A stretch of DNA of 34,838 nucleotides from a virus. The DNA is taken from positions 1-34,838 of IMG/VR virus record IMGVR_UViG_3300046642_001282. The stretch is one strand, 5' to 3'. Position numbers and translations under genes: made by a program. Under the pieces are notes generated by a model. That model was not told the origin of the DNA. It was given only the letters and a program-made list of their open reading frames with translations, and did not search any database. Below, piece by piece: positions 11,442-32,800 of this stretch. Each line of letters starts with the position of its first letter. The first letter of the stretch is position 1.

Positions 11442-12689
11442 TCAGAGGATGCGCAAGTCATCCCAGCCCTGGGTAGTCACGGAGAAGACCAGCAGGCCGG
11501 GCTGGGATACCTCTCCGGAGCGCATGACCCACCAGTCGGAGCCGTTATCGAGTGTGGGGGCCTGAACCCAGAGACGTCCGTTGCCGAGTTGCTGCGCGCG
11601 GAAGTGGTGGAAGTGCCCAGAGACAAGGATCTTGGCGTCGGCGATGGGCTGACGGCCGAAGGACTGGCCCTTCCACCAGTCCGGCGCCTTCTCCGGACGG
11701 GCGTACTGGTGACCATGGTTGAGGCCCACAATCGTCCCCGCCATGTCGAGCGAGACAGTGTCACGCCAAGGTTCGGGTACCACGAAACTCACATGGCCGT
11801 ACGCGTCGGGATTCCGTCCGTAAGCGTCGGCGATCTGCGACATGATTTCGACTCCCCAATCATCCTCTGGGGGCCCGATGGCGTCCTTCCCGCGCCTGAC
11901 CCGGGCGTGGTTCGAGCCGACGGTCGCGGCGACGACCCGAGGGAACGCCGTGGCGAGGCGATCCAGGCCTTCGAACGTCAACCGCCGGTGCAGCCGGATC
12001 ATCTGCGTGAGGGTCAGATCGTTCGTGAAGGCCTGGGAGGCGACGTTCTCGAACCCCTCGATGCAGTCACCCGCGTCGAGCCAGTACGCGGAGTCGGGTG
12101 CCCGACCCACCTTGCCGAGATCGCGCAGGTGGTCTTGGAGCCGGTCGAACCGGTCGGCGACCCGGGCCACCAACTCCTTCGTGCCACCGTCGCGGCCGAC
12201 CTTGCCGGCCTGCGGGTCGGCGTACACCACGGCGAGCGCACGCGCGGGCTGTTCGGCCGCTGCGCGCGGCTTCCGGCGGCGCCGCATCGCGTCGCGCACC
12301 AGGGTGTTGAGGTCTTCAGCGGACGCCCATCCGGGCACGGACGGCTCGATCAAGTACCGGCAGCGCCACACCGGGCGGGTGACGGCGTCCTCGCCCTGGG
12401 CGTCGCGGTGCCAGGCGGCCGGATCGTGCCGGGCTTCGACGAGCCGCACCCGGTACCCGTCGGGCACCACGAGGCCGAGTTCCTCGACGCGGGCACGCCA
12501 TCCGGTCTCGTCCTGAGGGGGTGCGTCGGCGGCTGGCGCGGTGACGAGCATCGAGCCGCCCTGTTCGTACCGGACTCCGGGTTCCCAGCCCTTGGGGGCC
12601 GTGGCCGCGGGCCGGGTGATCTCCGATGGTGCGGACTGCTCGGCGGCGGCAGGGGCGAGCAGCGCATCAAGGTGGGCGTCGAGGCTCAT
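11442..12689 (-). CDS. Calcineurin-like metallophosphoesterase
   Basis: A 415-residue protein starting at the ATG 12689, which overlaps the previous stop by ATGA. The frame is open further upstream but that part is shadow sequence. Residues 1-150 are Pro/Ala-rich, then a basic patch (RRRRKPR). Residues 151-410 show the metallophosphoesterase order: VVYADPQAGK (156-163), WLDAGDC (203-209), GSNHAR (258-263), LNHGHQY (323-329) and SGHFHH (357-362). The first block has Gln where D-x-H is usual (D158, Q160), and GNHD has become SNHA. The remaining ligands are present, so activity is possible but altered. Family members act as nucleases or phosphatases on nucleic acids; the substrate here is unknown. 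It is usually found among actinophage DNA genes, less often between capsid and connector genes. Confidence 0.85.
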   Translation of the reverse strand: MSLDAHLDALLAPAAAEQSAPSEITRPAATAPKGWEPGVRYEQGGSMLVTAPAADAPPQDETGWRARVEELGLVVPDGYRVRLVEARHDPAAWHRDAQGEDAVTRPVWRCRYLIEPSVPGWASAEDLNTLVRDAMRRRRKPRAAAEQPARALAVVYADPQAGKVGRDGGTKELVARVADRFDRLQDHLRDLGKVGRAPDSAYWLDAGDCIEGFENVASQAFTNDLTLTQMIRLHRRLTFEGLDRLATAFPRVVAATVGSNHARVRRGKDAIGPPEDDWGVEIMSQIADAYGRNPDAYGHVSFVVPEPWRDTVSLDMAGTIVGLNHGHQYARPEKAPDWWKGQSFGRQPIADAKILVSGHFHHFRAQQLGNGRLWVQAPTLDNGSDWWVMRSGEVSQPGLLVFSVTTQGWDDLRIL

Positions 12690-12955
12690 CGTGGGCACCT
12701 GCATCCGTTGGAGCCGCCGCGGCGACGGTGCCGGGCGACAGCAGGCGCTTGGACCTGGTGGCCGCTGCCGATGAGTGTGTCGGCGATCTGCGTCGAGCTG
12801 ATGGCAGGGGTGTCGAGCACGTCGCGGACCTTCTGCGCGGTGCTGGCGTCGAGTTCGTCGAGAATGATCCCGACGGTGCACCGCGGGCCGCGGGGTGCCG
12901 GGGGCGCCTCGGCGAGTTGAGCGAGGGCCGCGATCAGCCCGTTCGTGTCTGCCAC
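12686..12955 (-). CDS. Small DNA-binding-like protein with HTH, 89 residues
   Basis: The start is the GTG at 12955, preceded by AGAGGA. The core VGIILDELDASTAQKVRDVLD is followed by SSTQIADTLIGSGHQVQAPAV and the basic tail ARHRRRGGSNGCRCPR. The middle segment has the spacing of a helix-turn-helix (TQIADTLIGSGHQV, recognition helix after it). The ending with paired Cys and RHRRR is shared, as I recall, by small actinophage HTH proteins, some annotated as regulators or small terminase-like proteins. It is coupled to the metallophosphoesterase and separated from the capsid gene by a strong hairpin, so the pair is probably made at a lower level than capsid. A DNA-binding role is inferred. Confidence 0.75.
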   Translation of the reverse strand: MADTNGLIAALAQLAEAPPAPRGPRCTVGIILDELDASTAQKVRDVLDTPAISSTQIADTLIGSGHQVQAPAVARHRRRGGSNGCRCPR

Positions 12956-12980
12956 GGCAGTCCTCTCTGTACAACGGGGA

Positions 12981-13049: not shown

Positions 13050-14351
13050 TTACACCGGCGTGGTCCAGGTGCCGATGACGAACGACTCCGGCCGGGAGAC
13101 TTCGAGCGCGACGCGCTCGTCGGCACGGAAGGTCAGCACGCCCCGCTCGAAGTTGTCGGCGTTCTCGCTGGAGACGGTGACGCTGACGTTCTCGCGGTCG
13201 TAGAGCTGGGCACCCATGCCGAAGGAGCCGAGCAGGTACTGAGCGTCCGGCATCGCCGTGGTCTCGACGACGTTGATCCTCCAGACCCTCTTCTGCGCGC
13301 CCACGGCGACCTGGAGGGCGACACGGAAGGCGCCGTTGTCGTCGGTCTCGACCTCGACCTCTTCCCACATGGTCGGGCTGAGGACCACGCCGGTCGGCTC
13401 GTACTCGGCCAGCAGCGCCTTAGTCATGGCCCGCCGCATCTGGATCGAGAACTTGTCGGTGTTCTTCCCCACGTACTGCTGTACACCGGGGGTGTTGAAC
13501 AGACCGACGATGGACGTGCCGTCACCGCCCTGGGAGTGGAGGAGGTCGTAGTCCTCCGCGAACTTCACTCCCTCGACGAGGCGGGAGTTGATGAAGGTCC
13601 GCAAGCGCGGCTCGTCCGACAGGATGTTCTTGTGGCCATCGAGGAGGTGGGCGATCTCCGCGATGGGGAACGCCACGGGCTCCAGCTTCAGCTTCGACCG
13701 CGGGGCCTTGGCGAAGACGTCGGTGTCGAGGCCGGTCGGCGAGCTCACGCCGTCGGCTGCCCGCCTCTCCGGGACCTGCGCCGCGTTGTTGACCCACCCG
13801 GTCTCGCGAATGCCGAGCAGGACCGCGGACTTGGTCTTCGCGGAGGGGAAGAGATCGCGGACGTGCCACTTGCGTCGCTGCGCCTCGGTGATACCGAGGT
13901 CCTGGGCGGAGCCGAGGGCCTGGTGGGTGTGGGTGCCAGCCGACAGGGAGAAGATCGACTTCCCCTCGATCTCGGCGCGGATGTACGGCCGTTCCTTGAA
14001 CTCCTGGGCTGCGGCGCGCTTGTAGGCGTCGGACTCGGTGAACAGGTCACCGAGGCTCTTCGCCTCCATGTTGCTCGGGGCGCTGCCGTAGAACTGGCCG
14101 GCTGCGGGGGTGCCCTCGGGGGCGTTGAGGTAGGAGGTGAGGTTGTCGGCGCCCTGCGCGGCGTCGATGAGCCCCTTGATCTCCTGTGCGTCTCGGACGG
14201 TCTTGACGTACGCGTCCCGCTGGTCGGTGCTGACGACGAACTTGCCGTCCTCTTCCTTGAAGGTCGACGCGATGCGGTCGGCCTCCGTGCTCTTCTCCTG
14301 CAGTTGGGTCTGCAGGCTCCGGAGCAGGCTCTTATCGGTAGCCGTAGCCAT
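13050..14351 (-). CDS. Major capsid protein, HK97 fold
   Basis: A 433-residue protein with ATG at 14351 and GGGAGAA upstream. Residues 1-98 are helical and charged (LQTQLQEKSTEADRIASTFK), the delta/scaffold domain of HK97-type capsid proteins. At residues 95-101 MEAKSLGD lines up with the HK97 processing point, where the mature protein begins with Ser-Leu-Gly, so cleavage is predicted after K98. The body (residues 160-430) shows typical capsid segments: YIRAEIEGKSIFSL, VAFPIAEIAHLLDGHKNILSDEP, VLSPTMWEEVEVETDD and the C-terminal NFERGVLTFRADERVALEV. It follows the protease fusion, as in HK97-like phages. A structured 150-bp leader with a late-gene motif precedes it. Confidence 0.95.
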   Translation of the reverse strand: MATATDKSLLRSLQTQLQEKSTEADRIASTFKEEDGKFVVSTDQRDAYVKTVRDAQEIKGLIDAAQGADNLTSYLNAPEGTPAAGQFYGSAPSNMEAKSLGDLFTESDAYKRAAAQEFKERPYIRAEIEGKSIFSLSAGTHTHQALGSAQDLGITEAQRRKWHVRDLFPSAKTKSAVLLGIRETGWVNNAAQVPERRAADGVSSPTGLDTDVFAKAPRSKLKLEPVAFPIAEIAHLLDGHKNILSDEPRLRTFINSRLVEGVKFAEDYDLLHSQGGDGTSIVGLFNTPGVQQYVGKNTDKFSIQMRRAMTKALLAEYEPTGVVLSPTMWEEVEVETDDNGAFRVALQVAVGAQKRVWRINVVETTAMPDAQYLLGSFGMGAQLYDRENVSVTVSSENADNFERGVLTFRADERVALEVSRPESFVIGTWTTPV

Positions 14352-14503: not shown

Positions 14504-16657
14504 TCAGGCGCGGAGGGCGGCGAGCTGCGACTTGACCTCGTCGGGGTCCAGGACGGCCCGGTCCTTGGGCTTGATCGGCGTGTACGGCTCTTCGTCGTCT
14601 TCGCCCTCGCCATCGGAGCCCCACTGTTCGGAGCCCTCCTCGTCGTCCCACAGGTCGACCGGCGGCGTCGATGTCGGCTCGCCTTCTGTGTCGTCCGGGA
14701 GTTCCTCGTCGGCGTCGGCCGGTGCTTCCTCGTCGGGAAGGGGGTCGTCACCGACGTCCTCGTCCTCGTCGTCGTGCGGGAGGTCCTGCTGCTTGGTGGT
14801 GGGGACGGGGGCGCCCTTCTTGGCGAGGACGGCGAGGAGGCGTTCCACGCTCGGCTGGAGCGTGCCGACCTCGTCGGGGGTGGCGTCGGAGACGGTGATG
14901 AGGGCAGTCGCATCGTCGAGGGCCTGCGCGGACGGCTTCATGAACCGGGCGTCGACCTCCTCGTCGGCGCTGGCCGGTCTCTCCTTGCCGTCGACGGGCA
15001 CGGCGACCGTGGCGAGTTCCACGGGCTGCGGCGTTCCGAGGTCCACGTCGAAGCCGTCGACCGTGTAAGAGACGGCGTACGTGGTGTTCTCGCCGCGGTC
15101 ACAGACGACGACGATGGCCCGGTCTGGGTAGGTCGCTTCGACGCTGGTGAACGAGTCCTCGCCGCAGTCGAAGAGGGAGCGGGCAGCCTCCGCGATGCGG
15201 TTGCGGAGCTGCTCGTACGAGTACGGGGTGGGCGCGGGCATGGCGGACTCCAGGGGCAGGTTCTTTGCTTCGAGGACAGCGGCGAGAGCGCTTTTGCTCT
15301 CGGCGGCGTGGGTGGCGGGGTAGATGCCGAGGGCGTCGTGATGGCGGAGGTTGCAGTAGCCCTTGGCGTCTTCGGGCCCCATGTGCTTGGCGGCGATGGC
15401 CACGCAGCGGTCGAAGTCGCCGGGGCTGCCCCAGCCGATGCGGGAAGCGCCGTCGCCGCGCGCATACCAGTCACGCAACTGCTCGGCGTGGCCTCGGCTG
15501 TGGTCGATTCCGCCTGCGGACTTCGCTTCCAGCAGGACGGAGGCCGCGGTCTTGGCCTCCATGCTGGCCTGCGGGGTATCGGCGTCGACGGGCGGACCGG
15601 ACAGCGAGATCGAGGTCTTCTTCGACCCCTGTACGACCACGACTTCGTCGAAGCGCACCGGTATCTGGGGGAACGGCGCAACGCCGGGCAGCCGGTAGCC
15701 GAGGGTGATGTGCGGGGTGAATCCGTGGTCCTCGCGGAACTTGTCCGCGTACACGGAGAGCCGCAGAGCGTCAGCGATCCGCGTGCGGAGTTCGCTGAGT
15801 CCGGCGACGTCGACCGGCACCCAGGTGACCTCGCCTTCCCCCGTGTCCGGGAAACGGCCGACCCCGCCGATGCTGCCCTCCAGCGGGTTGGCATCTGTGA
15901 GCGCGCTGCGCACCAGGTCGGCCAGGTCGTCCGGGTGGCCGCCGAGCGCGGCCGCATCACCCAGGTACGCCAGGGTGATGTGCAGCTCTCGGGGAGGTGT
16001 GCCCTCCGGCTGGGCGATCCGCTCCGCGGAGTCCCGAGGCAGGTACAGGGCGATCATGGCGCCCTGATCGACTTGCTGCTCGGCGTCCTTGTGGTCGAGC
16101 TCGATCGCCGACCAGGTCGACTTGTGCTCGATCTCCTCCCCGGACAGGCCCGACTTGACCTCCAGCGACCGGGTCAGCGGGTGCGCCCCATGCAGAACGG
16201 GACTGACCTCGTACAGGTCCAGAGAGTGAATGATCCGTACGCCGTCGTGCCGCTTGCTGGCCGCGCCGGGCGGCACCTTGTAGCCGATGGAGAACGCCGC
16301 TTCACCGTGCTCGTGCCACTGCCGGACCTGTTCATACACGTCGCGTCCGCGGGCCGTGCGCATGTTGAACTGGACGAGAGCAACCAGCGCGCCGGCCTCC
16401 TTGGGCCACACGGCGCCACCGGGGATCGTTGCGAAGCGCGGGTCTCCGGGCTTCCACTCCTCGATCTCCAGAACAACCCCGATGGGGTCCTTCCACTCGT
16501 GGTGGAAGACGGTCTTCACCCGCCGGGTCGCCAGGGTTCTGGTGAAGGCTCCCGGAAGGATGAGGTCACTGACCTCGTCGACAACACCCGTGACAGCGAA
16601 GATCGCTCGTGCGGTGCCGTGACGAATGGACGGCTTGCGGGGTGGGGGGCTCGGCAC
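14504..16657 (-). CDS. Prohead protease / 2H phosphoesterase / scaffold fusion
   Basis: A 717-residue multidomain protein; the start is GTG 16657 with GGAGG 8 nt upstream. Residues 10-165 are an HK97-type prohead protease: FHHEW at 51-55 supplies the His, AFSIGY at 121-126 the Ser, and LYEVSPVLHGAHPLT closes the fold. Residues 200-345 are a 2H (LigT/2'-5' RNA ligase-like) phosphoesterase with both HxT motifs intact: ELHITLAYLG (H226, T228) and PHITLGY (H316, T318). Residues 383-452 form a module with SPGDFDRCV and KGYCNLRHHDALG, known to me from actinophage head proteins. Residues 560-717 are extremely acidic and scaffold-like, ending VLDPDEVKSQLAALRA. K-S/T/N sites preceded by LEV, MEA or LEA occur at each domain border (after 168, 369, 379 and 465), so self-cleavage is likely. 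Ordinary prohead proteases are near 200 residues. Confidence 0.9.
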   Translation of the reverse strand: MPSPPPRKPSIRHGTARAIFAVTGVVDEVSDLILPGAFTRTLATRRVKTVFHHEWKDPIGVVLEIEEWKPGDPRFATIPGGAVWPKEAGALVALVQFNMRTARGRDVYEQVRQWHEHGEAAFSIGYKVPPGAASKRHDGVRIIHSLDLYEVSPVLHGAHPLTRSLEVKSGLSGEEIEHKSTWSAIELDHKDAEQQVDQGAMIALYLPRDSAERIAQPEGTPPRELHITLAYLGDAAALGGHPDDLADLVRSALTDANPLEGSIGGVGRFPDTGEGEVTWVPVDVAGLSELRTRIADALRLSVYADKFREDHGFTPHITLGYRLPGVAPFPQIPVRFDEVVVVQGSKKTSISLSGPPVDADTPQASMEAKTAASVLLEAKSAGGIDHSRGHAEQLRDWYARGDGASRIGWGSPGDFDRCVAIAAKHMGPEDAKGYCNLRHHDALGIYPATHAAESKSALAAVLEAKNLPLESAMPAPTPYSYEQLRNRIAEAARSLFDCGEDSFTSVEATYPDRAIVVVCDRGENTTYAVSYTVDGFDVDLGTPQPVELATVAVPVDGKERPASADEEVDARFMKPSAQALDDATALITVSDATPDEVGTLQPSVERLLAVLAKKGAPVPTTKQQDLPHDDEDEDVGDDPLPDEEAPADADEELPDDTEGEPTSTPPVDLWDDEEGSEQWGSDGEGEDDEEPYTPIKPKDRAVLDPDEVKSQLAALRA

Positions 16658-16914: not shown

Positions 16915-17601
16915 TTACTTGCCTCCCTTCTTCGGCTTGCGGGCCCCGGGGAACGGCGCGTCGCCGTTCTCGTCGTCCTCCTCCTCGTCAGGGGACTCTT
17001 CCATATCCGGATCTTCCGTGGCCGACTCCGTCAACTCGTCGCCCTCCTCGTCGGCGTCGGCGAAGGGATCGTCCTCGGAGCCGGCGGTCTCCGCGGCCGC
17101 GGGATCGTCGGCGTACGGGTTCGGCGCTTCGTTCTCGGCTGGGTCTTCCTGCCCGCCAGGAGCGCCGGCCGGGTCTGCGCCCGGGTCACTTGACCCGGGC
17201 TTCGTACTGGTGCGCTGCATCTGCGCGCCGTCGACGTCGAGAGCCCAGGCGGCTTCGTCGCTGTACCGCCACACCTGTCCGGTCGCGTCCCGCACCCAGC
17301 CCGTGACCGTGCCATCCGCAGCGCGGTCCAGCCAGGCCTCCTCGCCGTCCTTGCCGGTGAACGCGGCGAACGCGCTGGCCGGATCGGTCTCGTCACCCTC
17401 GTCGTACGGGTCCCCGGCCCACGGCCGCGAGTCGTCGTGTGCTGGCGGCTGAAGTTCGTCGGAGGGAGCGGGCGGGCCCGGCGGCGCCCCGCTGGCCGGT
17501 TGCGCGGGCAGGGCCTTGATGGAGAACGCGAATCGAGTAGTGGTCACGGCGGGGAGGGTGAAGGGCACGGCCGGCTTGTGTCCCGGCCAGCCGTGCCCCA
17601 A
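16915..17601 (-). CDS. Acidic low-complexity protein, possible scaffold or head accessory
   Basis: Up to 228 residues, very acidic. The start is uncertain: TTG at 17601 lies 3 bases after the previous stop, but GTG at 17568 or 17547 (giving an N-terminus near TTTRFAFSIKALPAQPA) is equally plausible, and none has a well-placed ribosome binding site. A short folded segment around EEAWLDRAADGTVTGWVRDATGQVWRYSDE resembles a small beta-hairpin module; the remainder is Pro/Gly then Asp/Glu-rich with a basic tail (RKPKKGGK). Composition and the place just ahead of the protease fit a scaffold or a capsid-internal protein. Function is not recognised. Confidence 0.7.
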   Translation of the reverse strand: MGHGWPGHKPAVPFTLPAVTTTRFAFSIKALPAQPASGAPPGPPAPSDELQPPAHDDSRPWAGDPYDEGDETDPASAFAAFTGKDGEEAWLDRAADGTVTGWVRDATGQVWRYSDEAAWALDVDGAQMQRTSTKPGSSDPGADPAGAPGGQEDPAENEAPNPYADDPAAAETAGSEDDPFADADEEGDELTESATEDPDMEESPDEEEDDENGDAPFPGARKPKKGGK

Positions 17602-17849: not shown

Positions 17850-20800
17850 CTATCGGGTGGCGAGCAGTCCGAGGAGGAACGCCCGAAGGTCGTCGTCCTC
17901 GTACCAGTCGCCGTTGAACAGGGACAGCAGGGCCTGCGGCAGGACCACGTCCGCTCGGTCCGACTCCGCGTTGCTGAACAGTCGCGCGAACAGCTCGTCG
18001 ACGCTGGAGCGGCGAGCACCGACACGGCCCGTGTGGGTGCGGGCGTACCGGTATACCTCCTGGGCTGCCAGAAGGTCCGGCTGCGCCTGCTGAAGGTGCA
18101 CCAAGAGTGCGTACGCGGCCGTACCGAGGCCTCCGTCACCAAGGTCGGCGACGGACACCGTCCGGCTATGCGGGTCGTAGCCACCAACCGCTGCGTCCCG
18201 CGCGTGCACGAGACGCCGGTCCGTCGGGGCCAGCCAGTCCCGAGGGACGAACCGCTGCACGCCGTTCAGCGCTCGGGCAGCGTCACCGTCGCTGCCCGGG
18301 GACATGATCAGCGCCGACGAACCGCTGGGGCCCATCTCCCGCACCGACGCCAACGCATCGGCGACGACGTCGGGCAACGCAGTCGTGTACGCGGCGCGCA
18401 TCCGGTCTGCTTCCACACGGGCATCGGCAGCCTCGGCACGCGCAGCCGCCAACTCCAGCGTGTAGTCCGGGTTCACGCTGTGCCCGACGGGGTGGGCAGC
18501 GAGGTTCCGGGCCCGCCGCTCGGTCGTGTCCGCGTACGCGGCCGCCAGACGCAGGTTGGTGTGGGGGTCGTCGCCGTGATCCGGGAGTACGGCCGCGAGC
18601 CGGGCGTTGATCTCCTGGTCCATGTCGACGCCAGCGGCCCGCAGCGCGGCAAGGTGCCGCATCGCGGTAGCACCAGGGCCCCGGTCCGCAGCCCGGTCCG
18701 GCGCCCAGCGCATGCCGTCTTGTACCGCTGGGAGTTCCCCGGCGGCCAGAGCTCGGCGCGTCGCGCCCTGGTACCAGCGGGCCCGCCGCGACGTCTGCCC
18801 GAAGCGGCCGGGAGCCGGCATGAGCCGCGCCCAGTGCGCGATGCGCTCACCGAGGCCTTCCCCGTCGCCGGGAGCAGGGAGATCGGCGGCTTGGGCGATG
18901 CGGTGCAGTCGCCGTGTCTCCGGCCACGCCTTCACCCGGGCCACCAGGCGCTCACGGAACCTGCGGAAGGCCTCCGAGTTCCACGCTTGCCGCGCGGCCC
19001 GCAGCAGGGCCTGCACCATGGCGATGATGCGGCGGCCGATCCTCATGAGCAGCGCGAGGACCTGCGGCAGAACTCGCTGCCGCGTCGCGGGCGGCAGGTT
19101 CCGGACGATCCGTCGGGCGGTCGCCTGCCGGGTCGCCTCCATACGCCCGGTCAGGACACGGCCCAGCCGCAGCGCGTCCTCGTCGCTCAAGCCGTCGCCG
19201 AAGGCCTGCCGGGCGAGCGTCATCAGCGCGTCGTCGACGTGCCGGGCGATGGTCTCCCCGGTCTCCCCGGTGCCGTCCCGGCGCGCGGCCGGGACGCCGA
19301 TCTGGTCCGGAATCATTCGCAGCAGGTCCGCGGCACGGTTCGCCGTGTCCTGCGCGCTCTCGCCGTCGAGCGGCTCCAGGTCGTTGATGGTGCGCAGTAC
19401 CGCCCGGACCGCGGCCGCGCGGGCGCGTAGCCGTTCGGCCTTGAGTCGCTTGAAGGCCTGCGACCGCTCCGGGCCGGTGATCCCGGCCGCGTTGAGGGCG
19501 TCCACGGCGTCCTGCCGGGCCTGCTGCATGGGAACCAGCAGTGCCTCGGTGGTGACCCGCTCGGCGACCTGCTGGCGCAACTGATGGATGCTGCCCGCGG
19601 GCTCGGTGCCGGCGATGGCCGAGTCGACGACGGCGCGGGCCACCCGGTTGGGGTGCCCGGCCACGATGTCGTCGGTGGAGGGCGCCGGGTTCGGGTCACG
19701 ACGCGGGGCGTCCGCGCCCTCCGGGTCGGGCAGTTCGGGAAGCTGCCACAGCGGCTGATCCCCGGGCAGAGTGCGCGAGTGCGTATCCCCGGCGGCGTCC
19801 CGCACCGTCACCTGCCGCACCCCGCCGAGGAGGTCGTCGATCCCGACGACCGTGTACGTGGAGACGTTGTTCGCGTCGTCCTCGTCGGGCAGGGCGATCG
19901 TGTCGCCCACGCCGAGGTCGTTGACCGTTCCCTGCGCCGAGCGGGCGTTGGTGTCGCTGCTGGTACGGCCGGCCGCCTCGTCCAGATGCGCAGCGGCGCG
20001 GCGGGCCGCGCGCCCTTCCGCAGTGTCCGGGGTCGACGTGGCACGCAACGAGTCGGCCAGACCGGTGGCCTGCCCCGAAGTGACGGGCAGGTCCTGCCCG
20101 ATACGGGTCACGGCCTGCTGCACGTCGGGGTCGTCCGAGGGCGCCGTGCCGTGGTCGGCGATGGCGTCCCGCTCCTCCGGGGAGAGCTGCGGGTCCACGG
20201 TGTCACCGATGACCGGGTCGACCGCCTGCGGCTCCTCCAACACCCGCAGGTCGACGTCTTCATCGTCGACGGCGGGGGCTTGGCCGCCCTCGCCGACCAG
20301 GCGGGTCACCGGAGCGTCCGCCGTGGTGTCGATGTGGGAGGCCTCCCCAGTACGGGTGTCGGCGACGTCGAGCTGAACCCGGTCGCCGTCCTCGTCACGG
20401 CCGATGACGGCCACGGTGCGGGGGCCGTCAGCGCCGTCGTGGACGATGACGTCACCCTCGCTGAGGGAGCCGGCCGTGGCCGGTACGACGTCCGCCGTGT
20501 TCGTACGGTCCTCGGGTTCCCTGTCGCGGACTTCGCCCACGGTACGCAGGTCCGTGACCGGCATGGGCTTGATGCCCTCGCGGGTGGCGACCTGCACGCT
20601 GTCCCCGTCGACACCCTCGACGGTGCCGAGCATGTTGCCGTCCCGGTCGCTGACCACGTGGCCGTTGCGGACACGCTGACCCTCCGGTGTCCAGCCGGTG
20701 GGCCGGGCGGAGCCTCCGTCAGTGACGGTCACCGACGACGGGGCGAGGCCCGTTTCCTGCTTGTCGTCGCCCCAACTCACGGACACCGTAGACGCGTTGG

Positions 20801-23800
20801 CGCCGGTGACCACGCCCTCCCGGCCGCCGTCGTCCTGGACGAGGCTGCCCGGGAACAGGCCGCGACCAGAGCGGTCGGTGGCGATGCGGTCGGCGATGTT
20901 CCCCGTGAGAACGTCGCCCTCCGCACCGGTGACGAGGGAGCTGTCGGCCCGCTCACGCTCGTCGCTTACCTCACCCGTGGCACGGGCGGCCGAGGCGTCG
21001 AGCGGCGTCCACACCGGGGAACGGTCACCGCTGCTGCCGTCCTTGGTCTCCGAGACGAGCGTCATGAACATCTCCGTGCTGCGGCCCTTGCGGGACACAG
21101 CGCGGCGCTGCGGCGCCTGAATGACGTACCCGGACAGGGTGCGCGACTTCCCGGCGCGGGTGGTCCCCTCGATACGGACGACGTCGCCGAGCGTAAGGTC
21201 GCTGACGCTGACCCACTCCGCGGTACGGCCGCCGATCGGTTCCGGCGCGGGCCGCTCCTCGGGCACGTCGACGCCCGGAGAAGGCACATCCTCTGCCGAG
21301 TTGGGCGCTGCGGGCACAGCGGCCCCAGCATCCCGCCCAACGGCTGGCTCGGATACAGCAGGCACTGCCACGCCAGCGTCCTGTCCGACGGCTGCCTCAG
21401 GCGCTGTCTCACCCGTGCGGGGGCGGCGCATGGCACGAGCCCGGACCGGATCGGCGACCCAGTGCACTCCGTGGACCAGCCGCTTGACCTTGTTGCCGTC
21501 CAGGTCGAACTTGCCGCTCTCGGAGTCGTCTCCACCGCCAATGTCGTAGTCACCCATCACGCCGAACGGGAAGTCGAGCCCCTGCCCGACCGAACCGCGA
21601 CTGAGGTAGGCCGGGTGTTCGTCCGCGGTACCGCGCTCCGACCACTCGGCTGGCCCGCCGGGGGTGTCCGGATAGGTGAAGACGTGGAAGGAGTCGACCT
21701 CGTCACCCGCCTGCAGATCATCGGCGTGGTGGACGGGGATCGTGTATCCGTCCCGCTCGGACGTGGCACGCCACTTCGGGTAGTGCTCGTCCAGACGCTG
21801 CTCGTCGAGCAGCAGCAGACGCGCCTTGGTGCGATCGTAGAGCCGGTCCTCTTCGTCGAACTTGTCCACGAGGGCCTTAGCCACAGCCACGCCCAGGTTC
21901 TCGCCGTCCGATCCGATGAACGCGCGGGCCCGCTCGGGCGCGTCAGGGGCATCCCACGGGAACGGGTTGCCGTCGCGGTCTCGGATGCCCTCCAGGGCCT
22001 CGGTGTACGCGATGGCCTGCTCGCGAGTGATGTTGTACGGGTCGAACAGAGAGTTCATCGACCCGGGCGCCAGAATGCGCCACTGGAGACCACTCCGGTT
22101 GCCGTGCTTGAACTTGCCGATAGCAAGCCGACCGCCGGGGCTCAGCTCCAGCGTCTTGCTCTTGATGACGTCGTCCAGGCGCTGACGCATGTCCCAGTTG
22201 CCACCAGGACCGGGATCGTCGAGCTCGCCGGCGTGCAGGTGGTCCCGGAGCGCGGCGACATCACTGAAGCGGGGCTTCGACGCGTCGAACGTGTCGACCT
22301 CCGCCTCCGGCTCGGCGTCGGCGTCTGCCGCGTCCGCAGGAAGTGCGGTCTCACCACGGGCGGCCCGCTGCTGCTCCTCCCAATCCCACCGGTCGAGGCG
22401 TTCGGACTGCCGCTTCTGCTCGCGGAACTGGTTGTAGGTGACGCGACCGCCGTTCTGATCGAACCACTCGATCAGCTCGTCGGACGCGTACCGGCGCCAC
22501 GCGTCATTGGCGGACAGGAAGCCGCCGTTGAAGACGTCGTCCTCGCTGTACCCCTTGCGCTTCCCCTCCTTGTTGAGCAGCGAACCGCCACGCATCGCGT
22601 TGTCGGCCCGGTTCCGGCGCTCTTCGTGCCACATCTGGTATTCGTCGCGAAGCTGCTGGTCCTTCGACGGGCGCTTGGGGCGGACGATCTCCGGCGCGAC
22701 GTCCAACTGGCCGAAGCCCAGGGCCTCGTCCATGGCCTTGTTCTCGGCCTCACGCTCTTCCTCGGTTACCGGAGGCGTCTGCGACAGCACGTCACGAAGC
22801 TGGTCGGCCGGCGGGAACCGGCGGTCCATCTCGGCGGCGTACCGCTCCCAGTCCTCGGCGTTGAAGGCCTGGTGCGGGAACGATTCCAGTTCGAGGTCCG
22901 ACAGGATCGACAGATCCTCTGGCAGCGCGGACGGCTCCTCGCGGGCCTCGTCCGCCTCGAAGGCGTCGCGTTGGGCGCGCATCGCCTCGACCAGGTTCCG
23001 GCCCTGCCCGTCACGCCACCCGCGGACAGCAGCCGAGTCGAGATCGCCGTTCCAGGCGAACGGCGTGCCGTCGGCCCCGGTCAACTGCTCGTACCGGTTG
23101 GCGAGTTCGCGGGCCTCGGGTGCGCTGTACGCGCTCACCGCAGTGTTGCCCGCACCGCCGAATCCGGCTCCGGTGCGAGCGTGGGCGAAGTACCACAGGG
23201 CGGGCTGGCCGTCGGCCAGGGCCTCATGATCGTCAGTCCACGTCACCAGGCCACTGCCCTCGGACTGCGTCAGCGTCGGGTTGTCGGCGAGGCGCTGCAG
23301 GAAGTCCCGGTGCTCCGGGGTATCCATGCCTGCGGGCAGATCGCGGCCCGTTCGGTACGCGTCCCGCAGCCCACCGAGACCGCTGGAGTCGTCATCGTCC
23401 CGGAGATCGCGGTTGTTGCGCTCCGGGATGTGCGGGACAAGCGGGCGGCCCGGACCGCCGCTGTCAGGCCGGTTGCTGCCACGGTTCCGGCGGTCCCGGC
23501 GACGCCGACGACGAGCGCGGTCGTCTGTCCCCTCATCGTCGTCCCCGTCAGGGGTGCCGTCGTCGTTGCGGTCGTTGTCCGGTTCAGGGGTACCGCTGCC
23601 TCCGTCGCCGCTTGTCTCGTCCGGCGCGGCGCCATCAAGGTCCCCACGGTCACGGTCACGGTCCTCGCGGTCCGAGTCGTCCCGGCCGAACTCCTCCTCC
23701 TGGCCCTGTCCTTGGCCGTTGTCGCCGTCGCTATCGTCTCGTTCGCCGGGGCCCGCCGCGTCGTCCTGAGGGCCGCTCAGGCTCGGCAGGCCCTGCTCCC

Positions 23801-26800
23801 GCATTTCGCGGGCGAAGTCGCGCGCCGCCTCCTCGGGCGTGTCGAATCGGCCTTCTCCGGTCAAGTTGTTCGGGTACGGCCGCCACCAGTAGTACCTGCC
23901 TCCCTTGCTCTTGTTCTCCTTCCAGAGAAGAGCTTCGATGAGGCCGTCGACGTAGATGTTGCGGGGGCCGCCGCTCTTCCTCGGCTTGTCCAGCCAGACC
24001 CCGTCTCCGAGGTCGGTGGCCCAGGCGGGCACGGTGACTTCGTCCTCGCCGTCCGGAGCGCCGGCATCGCTCGTGGTTGTTTCAGACTCGTCGTTCTGCG
24101 AGGCCTGACGCTCGTCGTGAGTGGCCACGAGCCCGGCCGTGGCGAGATCCCGGCCGTGCCACGTGCGGCGCTGCCCATCATCGGTTTCAGCGTCGTACTC
24201 CAGCGTCCTCTCTTTGAAGTCGTTGGTGATCCGGCCGACCTCTACGCCATCGACGCTGACACTCCACTCCGTCTTGGCGCCCTCCTTCGCGACCTCATTG
24301 ACCTCAGCGCGGGCCACCAGAGCGGCTACCCGGTCGGGGCCGCCGAGTTCATGTGTCTCGTCGTCGACCGGCACCTCCCAGTTGGTGAAGATGTCGGTGC
24401 GCACCCGAGCCCGTGCCCTGTTGCGTACGACCTGCTCCGGCTTCTCGACGAGCACGACCCACTCATCGGGCCCAACGGTGTCGTGACCGTGGTTGTTGTC
24501 CAGGTTCACGGAGCGGACGGCCCCATCGAGACCGCCACGGTGGAGGTTGATGACGTAACGCGGCGTGTACATCCCGTCGAAGCCGTCGCTCGTGCCCTGC
24601 CGACGATTCACCGTGTGGAAGATGTTCCCCTCGCGGAGTTCGGAGCCCCGAGCCCATCGCATGCCTTTGGGCAGCTCCGCTTCACCGATCTTCAGCTCTC
24701 CGGTGCCCGTTCGAGCATCAGCGACAGGGGACGTCGGAGCACCGATGCTCTCTCGCCGACCGTTTTCCCAGTGCATGCCAGCCCAGTTCGAGCTGTCGTC
24801 CTGCGTGGCCCATCCAGCGAACGCGGACCAGTAGGCGGTCCCGTCCGCGACAGCGGCCTTGAGGGGACGGATGGCTTCAGGGAACTCACCATGGATGCCG
24901 TAGGACTTCTGGTCGGAGTTGTCGCCGCCGACCACACCGATGATGAAGGCTTCTGCCTGCTGTTCAGACAGACCGCGCTCCGCGGCCCCGGCGCGGGCGC
25001 GCGCGATCCGCTCGCGTACCGCCTCCCGGACCTGCTGTATCCGCTCCTCAAGCAACTCGTGGCGCAGCTCCAGAGCCTTCTTCCGCCCGTTCCGGGTGGC
25101 GATGTGGTTCACCAGGATGGGGCGCAGGTCGGTGCGCAGCCCCTCACCCATCTCTCGGACCGAGGACCGCAGATCCTCGGACAGGTCGGTGAGGAACTGA
25201 CGCGCCTCCGAGGGCACTTCATCCAGGCCGCGGCGGGTGTTCTCGTCGTACTGCGCCAAGGGCTCGACGTCGGCCATTGTGGAGATCCAGAACTTGACGT
25301 CCCACGGATCGGCTCTGGCGGACCAGCCGTCATCGTTGTGCGCGACCGCCCGGTCGAGGTACACGTTGCGCACTCCGGCCGGCTGCGGCTCCGCCCACAC
25401 GCCCGCCCACTCTCGGATCGGTGTGGCGCGACCGCTCGTGTCACCGGGGAAGCTCAGTAGAGGCTTGTCGTGCGCGCCGGCGACCACGAGGGCAGCGGCA
25501 TGCGCCGGGTTCTCGAAGTCCTTCTTGCTGGACCACGGATCACCGACTGGGCCGTGCGCATCGTGGTCTGCACGCCACGCCTCATCTCCCTCCGTGTCGT
25601 TGCGCAGGACGGAGCCGATTCGCTCGCCACCGAGGTAGACGGCCCGCCGGACCTCATCCCTGTGGAAGCGGTGCTTGGCGGGGATGACGTGTTCTTCGCC
25701 GATCTCCACGGGCTTGCCGTTGTGCTCACCGACATGCTCCCGGGTCTCCCCTTCGGCGTTGCTGTCGGACGTGCTGACGGGCGCCCCCGGGCTCGGCTGT
25801 TCGCCGTTGAGCGCGTCCAGGCCGTCGCCGCTCGGCGACGTCTCCGGACGGGCGTCGCCTGCGGTCTCGTCCGGTGATGCTGGCGTCCGACGGGCTTCGA
25901 AGTCGGCGCGCGCCTGATCGTCGAGGCGCTGCGCGGTGTCGTCCTCGCTCTGCCGCTGGTCGCGGGTGGCGCGGTGCCTGTCCAGGAAGGTGTCGAGCGC
26001 GCTGAGCAGGTCGCGCAGCGGCTCCTCCATCGTGTTCCGCTCGGTATTCAGCAGGGAGCCCTGCAGAACGGTTGCCTGCTGACGGGCGCTCGCGAGGTAT
26101 CGCTCTGTGTCGTCGTAGTCGTCGTCCTCCAGCGCGGCGATGGCGTTCATGACGCCACGACTGAGTTCGCCGACGGAGTCGGGTATCTCGCGAGGTCCCC
26201 ACGTCGCTGATGCGGCGGTGCCCAGATGTGTGTTGGCCACGTCCACGGGGGCGAGGCCGTCGCGCCACTCCTTGTTGTCGGTGAACGGCTTCGGGGCGGC
26301 TGGCGTTGCAGGGGCAGCGTCCTCGGTACGAGGCGCGGGGGCCCGCCGCTCGTCGCTGCTGCTGGTGGTGGTGTTCGCGGTCTCGTCGGGGCCGCCGAGC
26401 CGGACCTCGTCCGCGGGCCGGAAGAACAACTCCCGGCCTTGCTCCGTGACGACGCGGACGCGACCGCGGCCGGTCTTGTTCGGCGGTTCGGCCACGGTGT
26501 GGGCGTGGCCATCCGAGCCGGTGAACCGGTCGCCCTGCTCCAACTTGTCCGCGCGGCGGAGCTCCGCCTCGCGAAGATCGCTGGTGTCACGGCCTTCGAG
26601 AGCGGCGATCAGATCCGGCGTGCCGAACCCATCGTCGGGCTGGTCGAACGGGTTGTTCGGGTCGGCCGCGGTGCTCCGGCGGGCGGGGGCGGCCGGCGCC
26701 GAGAACAGGCCGTCGTCTTCGCTGCCGTCGCCCTCCACCTGGTCGCGGGTGAGGTCCGCCCAGTTCCCGCCGGGGCCGCTGCGCTGAGGCGTCGGATTGG

Positions 26801-29800
26801 GCGCAGGCTTCTGTTCCGGGCGCTTCCCGGCAAGGCGGTCGTTCTCCGCCTCCAGCGCGGTCAGGCGGGTCTTCGCAGCACCGGTGAGCGGCCCGTGGAC
26901 CATCTCGTGCTCGATGAGCGCCACGATCTCCGCCTGCCGGGCCTCCGGGGTCATAGCCCGGGGGCTGTCCGTCCCGACGGGCGGCTCCGATGCCTCGTCG
27001 TCACCGTCCCCTTGCTGCGGGACGTTCGGGCCGCTCGGCGGCTCCGATGACCCACCGGAACCCGCGTTGTCGCCGGTCGGGCGGATCGACTCCAGGTCCT
27101 CGTCGACTCGGTCGCGGTCGATCGTCACCGTGCCGGTTCCGCCGGTGTTCGAGGACTCACTGCTCTCGTTCGCAGAAGCTGCGCCGGAGCGGGTGCGGGG
27201 CGTGCGGGTGGCGCTCTCGGGCCGCAGTTCAGCGAGGTCGCGTTCCACGTCCTCGGGGTCCAAGGTGACCGTGTCGTTGACCGCGTTGAGGGCGGCGGCC
27301 GCGGCCTCCTCGTCGAATTCCTGCTCGCGCCGGTCCTCAATGCCGAGTTCGCTCTTCAACTCGGCGACTCGGCTCTGGGCCTTCAGATAGTCCTTGTTCT
27401 CCGGGTCTACCTCACGGTTCTTGTAGCCTTTCAGTTTCTCGTTCGCGGTGATCAGGTTCGACAGCAGCGCGACACGACGCTCCTTGGACCGCAGGCGCTG
27501 CCCATACGGCGAGGTGCCGCCCAAGCCTCGCTTCGCGCGTGCGCGCTCGTCCTGCGTGATCTCAAGGCTCTCCTCGGCGTCGGCGATGGCATCGTCGAGG
27601 TTGTTCAGGCGGCGCTCCAGAGAGGCGAGGATGCCGCGGCCGGAGGCGTCGTCGAGCTGGCTGGGCGTGTAGACGCCGCGCGTGTCCGGTTCGGCGGGGT
27701 GCTCCCAGTTCGGCCAGTCGAAGCGGACCTTGGCGACGCGGTTGCCGAACAGGTCGTGGCCGATCTCGACATGGAAGTCGTGGCCACCGAGGCGACCGAG
27801 CGGCACCCGGGCGCCGTCCTGCAGACTCATGTCCCGGGCTGCGGCCCGCACTTGCTGGGCGAGATCGTCGTAGACGTCGGCTCGCTGGTCGAACTCTTCG
27901 TCGCCGAGACGGATGCGGAAGTTGTCGCCAGAGACGTCCTCGCGGCGGGCCAGGGCGTCACGCCAGGCGGGCAGCACCCCGGAGAGGTCGCTGATGATGC
28001 CGTCGGCTGCGGCGACGGTGCGGCGGCGGGTGTCCTGGTCGCGGTGCCAACTGCGGTCCAGGCGCTGCAACTCGACGACGTCGGCGCCCGCCTGGGCGTA
28101 GTCCATGACGGTCATGTCGCCGGTGGCGATGGCTTTCATCTGGCCGAACGACACGGCGATGTCGCCGATGTCCTCCATCTCGCGGGCGTCGAAGTCCTTG
28201 CGGTCCATCTGCGCGATGAACCCGGCCTTGCGCTCCAGCGTGCCCAGCTTGAAGGCGTCGAACGTCTCCTCGGTGACGTAGGAGAGGATCCGCACATCGT
28301 CCGCGGTGCCGGGGATCCCCGGCATGTTCAGGTTGCCCTGGCGCTCGATGCGACCCTCGCGCTGCGCCATGTCGGCCGGCCGCCAAGGGAAGTCCATGTG
28401 GTGCAGGGCGACCGCACGGGCCTGAATGTTGGTGCCGGTGCCCATTTTTTCCGTGGAGCCGACGAGCACCGCGATCCGGCCGTTGCGGGCGTCCTCGAAC
28501 AGCTTGGCCTTGGCCTTGTCCGTCTTCGCCTCGTGGATGAAGCGGATCTTGTCGGCGGGGACGCCGGCCTCGACGAGCTCCGCCTTCATGTACGCGTAGC
28601 CGTCCCACGCGTTCTTCGCCGTCGACCCGGGCGTGCCCGCGTCCATGAAGACGATCTGCACGGAGCCGGGCAGCTTCTGCGGGGTGAGGTCCTCGTCGGA
28701 GACCGGATAGATCCGGTCCTTGTTCTCCTCGTAGATTTCGGCGATCTTGTGGACGGCGGCGTCGATCTTGCCGCCCTCTTCGCCGTGACCGCCGACGAGC
28801 CGCATGTCGATCGCGGCGCGCGAGGCCAGGCCGATCGCCTTGAGTACACCGCCCTGCTTGTGGATCCACGACGCGCTCGGCAGCGCGGTGACGAACGCCT
28901 TCTGCTCGGCGGAGATCGGCACCGTGACGATCTCGCCGCGCTTGCCGTCCTCGCCCGCGCGCACCTTCGGAGTGGGCAGGTTGAGGTCCGCGGCAGTCTG
29001 CACGTCGACGGCGAGCCGGTACATGCGCAGCAGCTCGGCCGCGTTGTGGAAGCGGGAGAACCGGGCCTTCATCCGGAACCCGGACCCGTCGGGGGCCAGC
29101 TCCAGGTTCTGCACGATCTCGCCGAACGTGGCGGCCCAGGAGTCGAAGTCGTCGACGCCGGCGTCTTCCAGGATGTCCGGGCGCAGGAAGCGCTGCATCA
29201 CGTACGCCTCGGTCACCGAGTTCGCGATCGGCGTGCCGGTGGCGAGGGTGACGACGCGACCGCTCTCGTTCCGCTCACGCAGGTACTCGATCTTCATGTG
29301 AAGGTCGGAGGCCCGCGCGGAGCCGGAGATGGCGGCGCCCTCGATGTGAGAGGCGGTGGCCAGATTCTTGTAGCCGTGCGCCTCATCGACCATCAGGTAG
29401 TCGATGCCGGTGTCCTCGAAGTGGACCGCGCCCGAGTCCTTCTTCGACGCCAGCTTCTGCTTGAGCTTGGCTTCCTTGGCCTTGAGCGTCTCTTCCAGAC
29501 GCTTGAGGGTGAGGGACTTACCCTCGCGAGCCTTGGCCCGCTTGATCTCGTCCTGGAGCTTGTCGAGCTCCCGACGCATGTACTTCTCTTGGGCCTCCGC
29601 GCGCATGGGGATCCGCTCGAAGGCGCCCTGCGTGAGAATGACGGTGTCCCAGTCGCCGGTGGCGACCTTGGCGATGAAGCGGCGACGCTTCTTGCCGGTG
29701 AGGTCCGCGGAGGACGCCGTGAGCAGCTTGGCGTCGGGGTACAACTCCAGGTACTCGCGCCGGAATTGGCCCAGCATGTGGTTCGGGACGACGATGGCCG

Positions 29801-32800
29801 GCTTGCGGGCCATGCCGGTGCGGCGCAGTTCCTGCGTACCGGCGACCATCGTCGCCGTCTTGCCAGCACCGACCACGTGCGCGAGCAGCACCGACTTGTC
29901 GCTGACGATCCGGCGGATCGCAGCGTTCTGGTGCGGCCGCATCTTCCACTCGGCGGTCGCGCCGGGCAGAGCCAGCGGGGAGTCGTCGAACTCCCGCATC
30001 ACCAGGTTGTTGAACGTGTCGTTGTAGACCCGGGCCAGGCGCTTCGAACGCTCGCGGTCCTCCCACACCCACTCGGAGAACCGCTCGGCCATCGCCTTGG
30101 CCTTGGCCTGCGCCTCGCTGGTCGCCTCGTCGTCGGTGACAGTGACCTTCTTGCCACCGGCCTCGATCGTGCGGGTGACGACGATCGTGCGCTGCTCCAG
30201 GAGCGCCTTGGCGATCTCCGGGGCGGACTTGGACTTGGTGCCCCAGTCGGACGTGGCGGCGATACCGGTGGTGGGCCCCTGGACCTCCCACATGGACGCG
30301 CCACCACGCTCGGCACGCACGGCCTTGGTGCCCAGGATGTGTTGGAGGAACGCCGTGACGTCCGTCTCCGGGATCCACGGGGCGCCCATCTTGACCTTGA
30401 TCTCGGACGGATCGAGATCACGGGGGATGACGTTCTTCAGCGCGGCGACGTTCGCCCCGAACCGCGGGTCGGCGGCGGCGGCCTTTTCGGCGAGTACCAG
30501 CTTCTCCCGGACGTTCCCGGACAAGTACTCGCCGCGGGAGACGAGCCGGTTGGTGCCGGGTTCGTCGAACGCGAGCGGGCCGATCTCCTCGCGCAAGGCC
30601 TCCAGGTCGTCGACGCGGCCCAACAGGCGGGCGATCGTCGGTAGATGAAGTTCACCGCCGTCGAGCTCCTGCGCGAGGGCGATGGCCTCCTCGGGGCTGC
30701 TGGCCCGGTCGGCGATCTCGCGGGGCGCGAGGACGCGCTGGGTGAAGATGTCGGCCTTCTTCGCCGACTTCGCGGTGTCGTCCCACTTGTCGAGGCCGAA
30801 CACCACGGCGGAGGCCGGGTCGTCCTCGAAGACCTGGAGCGCGGACGGATGCTTCCACGCGTCGGGAACGTCTTTGAGGCCTTCGGCCTTCGCCCGGTCT
30901 TTCGCCTCCTGGGGGCTGAAGAACCGGGTCTGGCCCGGCTTGTCGAGCGGGCCGTGCTGCTTGACGTACGCGTCGTACGCCTCGTTCAACTCCCGGCGCA
31001 GGGCCCGCATGTTGTCGGTCTCGCCGGACTCACGGGTGGCACCTTCGAGCCGGAGCAGGCGGTTGGTGCTCTCCCTCAGGGCGACGAGCTTGCGAAGCTG
31101 CTCCTGCTGAGTCGGGTGGACGTCGAGCGGGATGACCGCGCCGTCCTCGACCTGCGTGAACGAGCCGTCCGAGAGGATGTGCACTGCGCCTTCGTGCTTC
31201 TCCCCGGCGAGCTCAAGGCGCCGGTCGACGGCGTCGATCTCCGGCACGTACCGCATGCGGGTGTTGCCCTGCCCGCGGAGTGAACTGCTGTGGACGCGGG
31301 CCAGGCCCGCCTTCAGCGCGGGGCCGGCGTTCTTGTCGCCGATCACGGTCAGGTCGTGGTCGGAGAACTGGCCGCGGCCCGTGGTGAGTTGCCCGAGGAT
31401 GTTCTGGGGGTTCCGCTGGAAGTAGTCGTTGACCGCGATCTCGTGGCCGTTGACGTTCGTCTTCGACGACCGCGTCCACGACATGTCTATGTCGTGGGTG
31501 TTCTCGTCACCGAAGCGGCGGCGGAACACGAGGACATCGGTGACGACTCCGGTACCGGCCGCGTCCTGGTGCGCGCCGGCCGGGAGACGAACCGCGCCGA
31601 CCAGGTCGGCCATGTAGGACATCTGCCGCCGGGCGGTGTCGTCCTCACCGTCCATGGTGTAGCGGCTGGTGACGACGGCGACGAGGCCGCCGGGGCGGAC
31701 CTTGTTCAGGCTCTTGAGGATGAACGTGTCGTGGATCGAGTGCTTCAGATCCGGGTTGACCTGCTCGTCGTACATCGGGAAACGGCCGAACGGCACGTTG
31801 CCGATGGCCAGGTCGAAGTACGAGTTCGGCATACGGACGTCGCCGAACGAGCCGTTGATGATCCGGGCGTCCGGGTAGAGGAGCTGCGAGATCGCCGCGG
31901 TGGTCGGGTCCAGTTCGATGCCGGTCACCCGCGCGCCCTCGGGGGCGGCACCGATGAAGTTGCCGGAGCCGGAGCCGGGCTCCAACACGTTGCCGCCGCC
32001 GAAGCCGAGGTCTCGCACTAGGTCCCACAGGGGCTGTACGAGCTCGGCGTCCGTGTAGTGGGCGTTGAGCGTGTTCGCCTTGGCGGCGGTCCACTCCTCG
32101 TCGTTGAGGAGCTCCCGTACGGCCGCCCGCTCCTCGGTGAACGATTCCCACTTCTTCAGCGCGCGGGCGTACTTCGCCGGGTCAGGGTTGCCGTCGGCAT
32201 CCCGGAACGCCCCGTCCGTCGGCTCCGGCTTGTCGGCCAGAACGATCGGCAGCGCGCCCCAGCCGGACCAGCGGGCCAGGATCTTCTGCTCTGCGGGCGT
32301 CGCCGGCCGGTCCTCGGCCTGGATCTGCCGGAGCGTCGTGACGGCCGCGACGTTCGCGCGGGCCCTGGCCTTCTCACCCGAAGGCGCCAGATCCTTCTGG
32401 GACTTCGGGCGGAAGGACGGTGCAGCTACAGCCTGCCGTGATCCGGAAGCTCGGCGTTCTCCATCCCGGGCTCGGCCGGCAGGAAGATGTGCTCGGCCAT
32501 CACCAGTTCGCGGGCCTGCGCCGCCGCCTGCATCTTGGCTGCCACCCTGTCCACGAACCTCTCGCTTGTCTGATCCTTCAGGATCTGCCGCGTCCGGTTC
32601 GTGATCTCCTGATCCGCCAGAATCCCGAGCGTCGCGAAGTAGGTCTCCTTCTCCTCGTCCGTCCCCAGCTCCGCGTACGCCGTCGGCCTGTACGTCTCCC
32701 AGTGCTTCCTGGCGATCCGCCCGAGCTTGTTCACTGCCACTGCTGTCGTCTCCCGTGGTGGTGGTGTCGGGGGCGGACTGATTATCCGTCCCCGGCGTGA

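Follow-up and report, generated by a model that had tools for sequence, protein, structure and literature searches.

The 717-aa open reading frame at positions 14504-16657 (minus strand, GTG start) of the window, which is the whole 34,838-nucleotide stretch of DNA analyzed here and comes from a Streptomyces-type phage, lies directly upstream of an HK97-type capsid gene. It quite probably encodes a self-processing prohead polyprotein, in which an S78 protease and a conserved C-terminal part enclose one or two cargo domains that can be swapped. Since the capsid's own short signal lies between all parts of the fusion, self-cleavage by the protease is very probable, as judged from the sequence. 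An embedded protease is found together with its own predicted recognition sites at the domain borders, which is the pattern of a polyprotein. The features of the fusion are given below, with a slash marking each predicted cut.

14504-16657, minus strand: protease-cargo fusion polyprotein, 717 aa (ORF translation; 40 homologues)
16163-16618, minus strand: S78 prohead protease domain, residues 14-165, with His53 and Ser123 (Pfam/PHROGs, AlphaFold, alignment)
16151-16156, minus strand: predicted cut K168/S169, LEVK/S, in the protease/2H linker (motif, AlphaFold)
16118-16123, minus strand: predicted cut K179/S180, IEHK/S, also in the protease/2H linker (motif, family alignment)
15626-16069, minus strand: 2H phosphoesterase (LigT/CPDase-like) cargo, residues 197-344, with HITL at 226 and 316
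15548-15553, minus strand: predicted cut K369/T370, MEAK/T, in the gap between 2H and Cys/His (motif, AlphaFold)
15518-15523, minus strand: predicted cut K379/S380, LEAK/S, 10 residues past K369 (motif)
15302-15499, minus strand: Cys/His module cargo (phrog_6439), residues 387-452 (PHROGs; in 15/40 homologues)
15290-15295, minus strand: predicted cut K455/S456, AESK/S (motif, AlphaFold)
15260-15265, minus strand: predicted cut K465/N466, LEAK/N (motif, AlphaFold)
14867-15238, minus strand: C-terminal alpha+beta domain, residues 474-597 (conserved in 40/40; AlphaFold)
14549-14815, minus strand: disordered linker, mostly acidic, residues 615-703 (sequence, AlphaFold)
14510-14545, minus strand: C-terminal helix 705-716 with DEVK/S at K709, a candidate detachable encapsidation tag

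The S78 assignment comes from PF04586 (40.6 bits, cut-off 21) and from phrog_80, head maturation protease (E 8.9e-17). The 2H assignment comes from PF13563 (50.4 bits) and two HxT motifs. Profile matches in Pfam/PHROGs span residues 96-163 for S78, 219-324 for 2H, and 388-455 for phrog_6439, and no MuF domain was matched in either database. The 2H block resembles LigT/CPDase structures in Foldseek, with matches to 1iuh (2.7e-8) and drCPDase 5h7e (3.7e-8), and a weaker match is the anti-CBASS nuclease Acb1. Unrelated catalytic domains, S78 with either 2H or NUDIX and in addition Cys/His, are combined in one chain near the head genes. The AlphaFold model of the window fusion, built from 21 sequences, has pLDDT values below 50 at residues 155-195, 356-389, 449-476, and 615-703 and higher values in between, with short helices predicted in places within the linkers. 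The model of one NUDIX member had a mean pLDDT of 42 and was set aside as too poor.

The motif E-x-K/[S/T/N] occurs in the window fusion at K168, K179, K369, K379, K455, K465, and K709, and the six junction sites all fall within the low-pLDDT gaps 155-195, 356-389, and 449-476. Composition-preserving shuffles of the 717-aa chain give an expectation of 0.28 for E-x-K-[STN] compared to the seven observed, and none of 20,000 shuffles reaches seven; the stricter [LMIV]E-x-K-[STN] is found five times against 0.06 expected. K369/T and K465/N carry the rarer P1' residues (T in 20/223 and N in 1/223), a point against the self-processing reading. An earlier note on this DNA had listed five of these lysines, K168, K369, K379, K455, and K465, as lying at domain borders. 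Their positions, and those of the fusion and capsid ORFs, are exact by sequence check, and the Pfam/PHROGs borders and the AlphaFold gaps agree with the placement. However, the list had omitted K179 and K709.

The capsid gene starts 152 bp downstream of the fusion ORF and contains two copies of the motif.

13050-14351, minus strand: HK97-type major capsid protein, 433 aa, presumed main substrate (PF05065, 91.6 bits)
14055-14060, minus strand: predicted capsid processing site K98/S99, MEAK/SLGD (motif, capsid alignment)
13956-13961, minus strand: second capsid motif K131/S132, IEGK/SIF, invariant in relatives, an alternative site

The HK97 processing sequence is K/SLG. K98 is favored over K131 as the predicted processing site, though not proven, because it matches this HK97 sequence, its E-x-K-S is constant amid variable flanks, and the Gordonia cousins, with K/D at the K131 equivalent, still have K/[S/A] near K98. 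E-x-K/[ST]-[LF]-G-[DE] is present at the K98 position in 40/40 capsids with variable preceding residues, and P3 is E and P1 is K in every one of them. On the other hand, HK97 residue 95 stands opposite window capsid residue 128 in the sequence alignment, which makes the structural equivalent of HK97 K103 ambiguous between K98 and K131. The HK97 capsid is cleaved at K103/S104 (PMC10275583), and K131 could be the real equivalent of K103 by this alignment. The MEAK-SLGD that the earlier note placed at an HK97-like position is indeed present at K98, but that position is ambiguous, with K131 as the rival site.

The first genome scan with the full-length protein as query returned no matches, and an alignment of the protease domain was required. 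With it, a scan of IMG/VR gave 59 loci, and 39 of these plus gp52 of Streptomyces phage Gilgamesh make up the 40 fusions. The host of Gilgamesh is S. lividans, and its gp52 is a 641-aa chain with NUDIX as catalytic cargo and predicted cuts after LEVK, LEYK, IEHK, and IEAK, the Gilgamesh capsid being predicted to be cut after IEEK. Where a family member sits in a named bacterial genome, the genus is nearly always Streptomyces. A non-redundant set of 31 fusions (<85% identity) was used for counting the family-wide motif [LIMVAF][ED]-x-K-[STAN]. Automatic calls of Cys/His inside S78, of S78 near residues 340-500, and of a partial Cys/His in locus L030 were removed or discounted as spurious cross-hits.

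Aligning the motif in homologues was a check set beforehand, and the motif is confined to the linkers. There are 160 occurrences in 4,293 linker residues compared to 2 in 13,884 domain residues, with 6 in the tail, and a second set taken from later-fetched genomes, with members <97% identical to the first, repeats the pattern with 54 linker and 1 domain sites. The homologues are related and the counts are thus not independent, but the linkers and cargo nonetheless differ strongly. Five control motifs (K-to-R, reversed, rearranged) occur 0-4 times in the linkers, the K-to-R version accounting for the 4. Counting all linker lysines without motif pre-selection, 179/247 are in [ED]xK[STANG]. The fusions contain 208 motifs per 26,272 aa, whereas the other ORFs of the same loci contain approximately 30 per ~130,000 aa (38 listed minus 8-9 in capsids initially unrecognized), and the idea that phage proteins generally carry the motif was rejected on this count.

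In the 31 non-redundant homologues, 71 linkers between domains are genuine, and at least 69 of them have one site or more. The raw count was 71/73, and two linkers were dropped because the spurious partial Cys/His call in L030 had split one linker between 2H and the C-terminal domain. This coverage, together with the constant E and K of the capsid site, supports the earlier proposal that the coincidence of motif and border points to the protease freeing each domain inside the procapsid. The exception is the distant member at locus L053, which lacks a site in one linker; K/[AST] without the P3 Glu is used among distant members in sister clades, and both observations count against the reading. 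At the level of clades, linker P3 follows the capsid. Where the capsid P3 is Glu in 40/40, P3 of linker K/[STA] is Glu in 258/291; the sister clades often have Gln or some other residue at the capsid P3, and their linker P3 Glu falls to 49/134, which is a single contrast rather than many. V167, K168, E177, K179, and K369 are invariant in the family alignment, and the linkers otherwise vary in length and sequence. Neighboring sites are exactly 10 residues apart in 63/126 pairs. The C-terminal helix with [ED][VM]K[SAT] is present in 34/40 fusions.

The cargo is exchanged between the constant ends of the chain. The catalytic domain is 2H in 22 fusions and a NUDIX hydrolase in 18, and the Cys/His module is present in 15/40 and absent from 25/40. 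On the protease-plus-capsid tree, the catalytic swap represents one change and the Cys/His module at least approximately 10, some of them on weak branches. L087 has no catalytic domain and reads protease, sites, Cys/His, sites, C-terminal domain, and two distant Nonomuraea/Planomonospora relatives have the reversed order protease, Cys/His, 2H. The cut sites are retained at the junctions despite swap, gain, loss, or absence of cargo. His53 and Ser123 of S78 are conserved in 40/40, the Nudix box is intact in 18/18 NUDIX members, and both HxT motifs are intact in 20/22 2H members, L026 and L053 having each lost one. DNA direct repeats flanking the Cys/His cassette found no support as an exchange mechanism (29/60 bases identical). 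The Cys/His module does not always bring E-x-K sites with it, as A3Wally, Cece, GodonK, Forza, and Fizzles have the module without hydrophobic E-x-K-S flanks.

Other arrangements are seen in relatives. The cargo is N-terminal to the protease in Gordonia phages (L006:1584-6485 and L007:4110-6272, with junctions LQYK/AVP and LDYK/AVP), and the close relative Gray lacks cargo; the N-terminal cargo of Gordonia relatives differs widely in length, as gp34 of Gray has 455 aa, gp35 of UBSmoodge 720 aa, and gp27 of DalanDe 1,633 aa. In L060:6535-15174, the S78 protease and a giant protein (>2,600 aa) share one ORF with the junction MEHK/T. An N-terminal E-x-K/A is present on the giant internal proteins of Cantare, DalanDe, and L076 and absent from the other matches. 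One subclade alone has a protein of ~180 aa downstream of the capsid (L022:13735-14277, L023, L034) that contains E-x-K/A three times within the N-terminal third.

Two further genes of the window lie on the other side of the fusion.

17850-34775, minus strand: giant DarB-like polyvalent protein, 5,641 aa, likely head-internal neighbor (phrog_10089)
16915-17547, minus strand: acidic upstream protein, possible extra substrate, start codon inferred

The DarB-like antirestriction protein has methyltransferase and helicase parts, and some stretches of it reach up to ~46-50% identity with Gilgamesh gp48. It was rejected as a further substrate through the motif, as it contains 0 [LMIV]E-x-K-[STN] sites. 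In orthologues of the acidic protein, F-x-[IV]-K/[AT]-LP is conserved near the N-terminus, within a few residues of the start, and resembles a short leader for cleavage or targeting. A metallophosphoesterase/exonuclease-like gene (phrog_284, 11442-12974, minus strand) is located just downstream of the capsid gene and is found in Gilgamesh too (gp55).

Explanations of the motif other than the release of cargo differ in how well they fit these counts. Chance can be set aside almost completely: lysine is scarce in a high-GC phage, and helical linkers rich in E, A, and K (A 20%, E 9%) could yield the motif by composition, but the shuffles and the five control motifs refute this, the rearranged controls being near zero and the second set repeating the pattern. 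The E-x-K-[ST] helices might instead be uncut docking or scaffold motifs that bind the protease or the capsid, with the whole chain injected as a polyvalent protein. The exact 10-residue spacing in half of the pairs and the short predicted helices fit such a role. However, the motif is identical to the capsid processing site, and HK97 is cut after the lysine of its own; in addition, P1' is small throughout, and the K-to-R control is nearly absent, so that docking appears quite improbable.

Less remote, yet still unlikely, is self-destruction, in which the cuts dismantle the protease and the fragments exit the procapsid before DNA packaging, while the enzymes act before or outside the capsid. 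The predicted pieces are small, roughly 7-20 kDa, as this explanation would have it. In contrast, the near absence of sites inside the folded domains, the protease included, indicates that the cuts are not shredding the chain, and the active sites of the cargo are strongly conserved. Release of intact cargo domains by self-cleavage is the reading that we retain.

In the mechanism proposed for self-processing, the fusion would enter the assembling procapsid as a single chain. There, the protease would cut the capsid after K98 at E-x-K/S and its own linkers at the E-x-K motif, which would release each cargo domain. Cutting at both members of a pair, which as a rule are spaced by 10 residues, would strip the linker from the two neighbors. 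That the cleavage occurs inside the procapsid is fairly likely. The constant C-terminal part, with its acidic tail and terminal helix, is the obvious candidate for the encapsidation signal, and this role is somewhat more probable than its absence. It is in line with the packaging of a construct in which GFP is joined to part of HK97 gp4 (cited in PMC11626933) and with SPN3US gp245, which removes its own C-terminal propeptide (PMC10052503). The gp4-GFP construct is man-made packaging, whereas the window fusion would be a natural version with predicted built-in release sites. The freed enzymes could then be retained and ejected into the host, where they would target RNA ends or signaling nucleotides, a step with slightly less than an even chance. 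A role of the 2H domain against nucleotide-based defense or in RNA-end handling is plausible in view of Iyer et al. 2017 (PMC5512222).

Several elements of this scheme are already known, namely the cutting of internal proteins by prohead proteases, injected proteins with multiple domains, and MuF effectors that can be exchanged. As in HK97 gp4/gp5, the S78 protease gene lies directly upstream of the gene of an HK97-fold capsid with an N-terminal scaffold part, and both capsids have a Lys-Ser site, which is predicted in the window. In contrast, the window fusion repeats this type of site at each inter-domain linker, and HK97 gp4 is not known to carry enzyme cargo. T4 gp21 and SPN3US gp245 are prohead proteases that cleave the capsid, themselves, and head-internal or ejection proteins (PMC10052503). 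However, they belong to other protease types that cut after Glu (AxE), and their cargo consists of separate proteins with propeptides, whereas in the window fusion the cargo domains are part of the protease chain itself.

Polyvalent proteins also unite different kinds of enzymatic domain, 2H among them, in a single chain encoded near head genes, and a parallel to viral polyproteins and to embedded peptidases has already been drawn for them (PMC5512222). There, the processing idea mainly concerns zincin metallopeptidases, the assemblin-like peptidase is C-terminal whereas the protease of the window fusion is N-terminal, and a matched cleavage motif was not found in the passages covered. Temperate phages also have MuF polymorphic toxins, which similarly join a constant head protein to exchangeable effector domains (PMC5576092). 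In contrast, the window fusion has no MuF; its carrier is the protease, and its borders are marked by the protease's own cleavage motif. No report of cargo within an S78 protease with the capsid motif at each border was found in the literature covered, which lies mostly outside subscription journals.

A related pattern is observed in the large head proteins with a Cys/His module of the Microbacterium phages A3Wally (L011:3075-7706), Cece (L012:3048-7694), and Fizzles (L015:2874-6071). They contain four, four, and three [VIL][TV]AS-[AG] repeats, respectively, compared to <0.1 expected for a motif that was picked post hoc, and VTASA is also present in the A3Wally and Cece capsids. These repeats possibly represent the same idea with another protease, and this other lineage may follow the same scheme with its own motif.

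If the self-processing reading is true, the maturation protease of an HK97-type phage both carries the enzymes that are delivered at infection and acts as the switch for their release, and the fusion is a DNA-phage counterpart to the RNA-virus polyprotein. It would also provide a sequence rule for finding virion-delivered effectors, probably with counter-defense roles, in actinobacterial phages, which is the presence of linkers with the capsid's cleavage motif. Moreover, it suggests a natural design for cargo loading and release in HK97-type capsids. More tentatively, and with somewhat less than an even chance, the prohead protease of this phage lineage may be a general loading vehicle with the protease as constant front, the encapsidation part as constant back, and the cleavage motif as cassette borders, in which enzymes are exchanged, packaged, freed, and injected. 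If so, it would amount to a polymorphic effector system that rests on capsid maturation.
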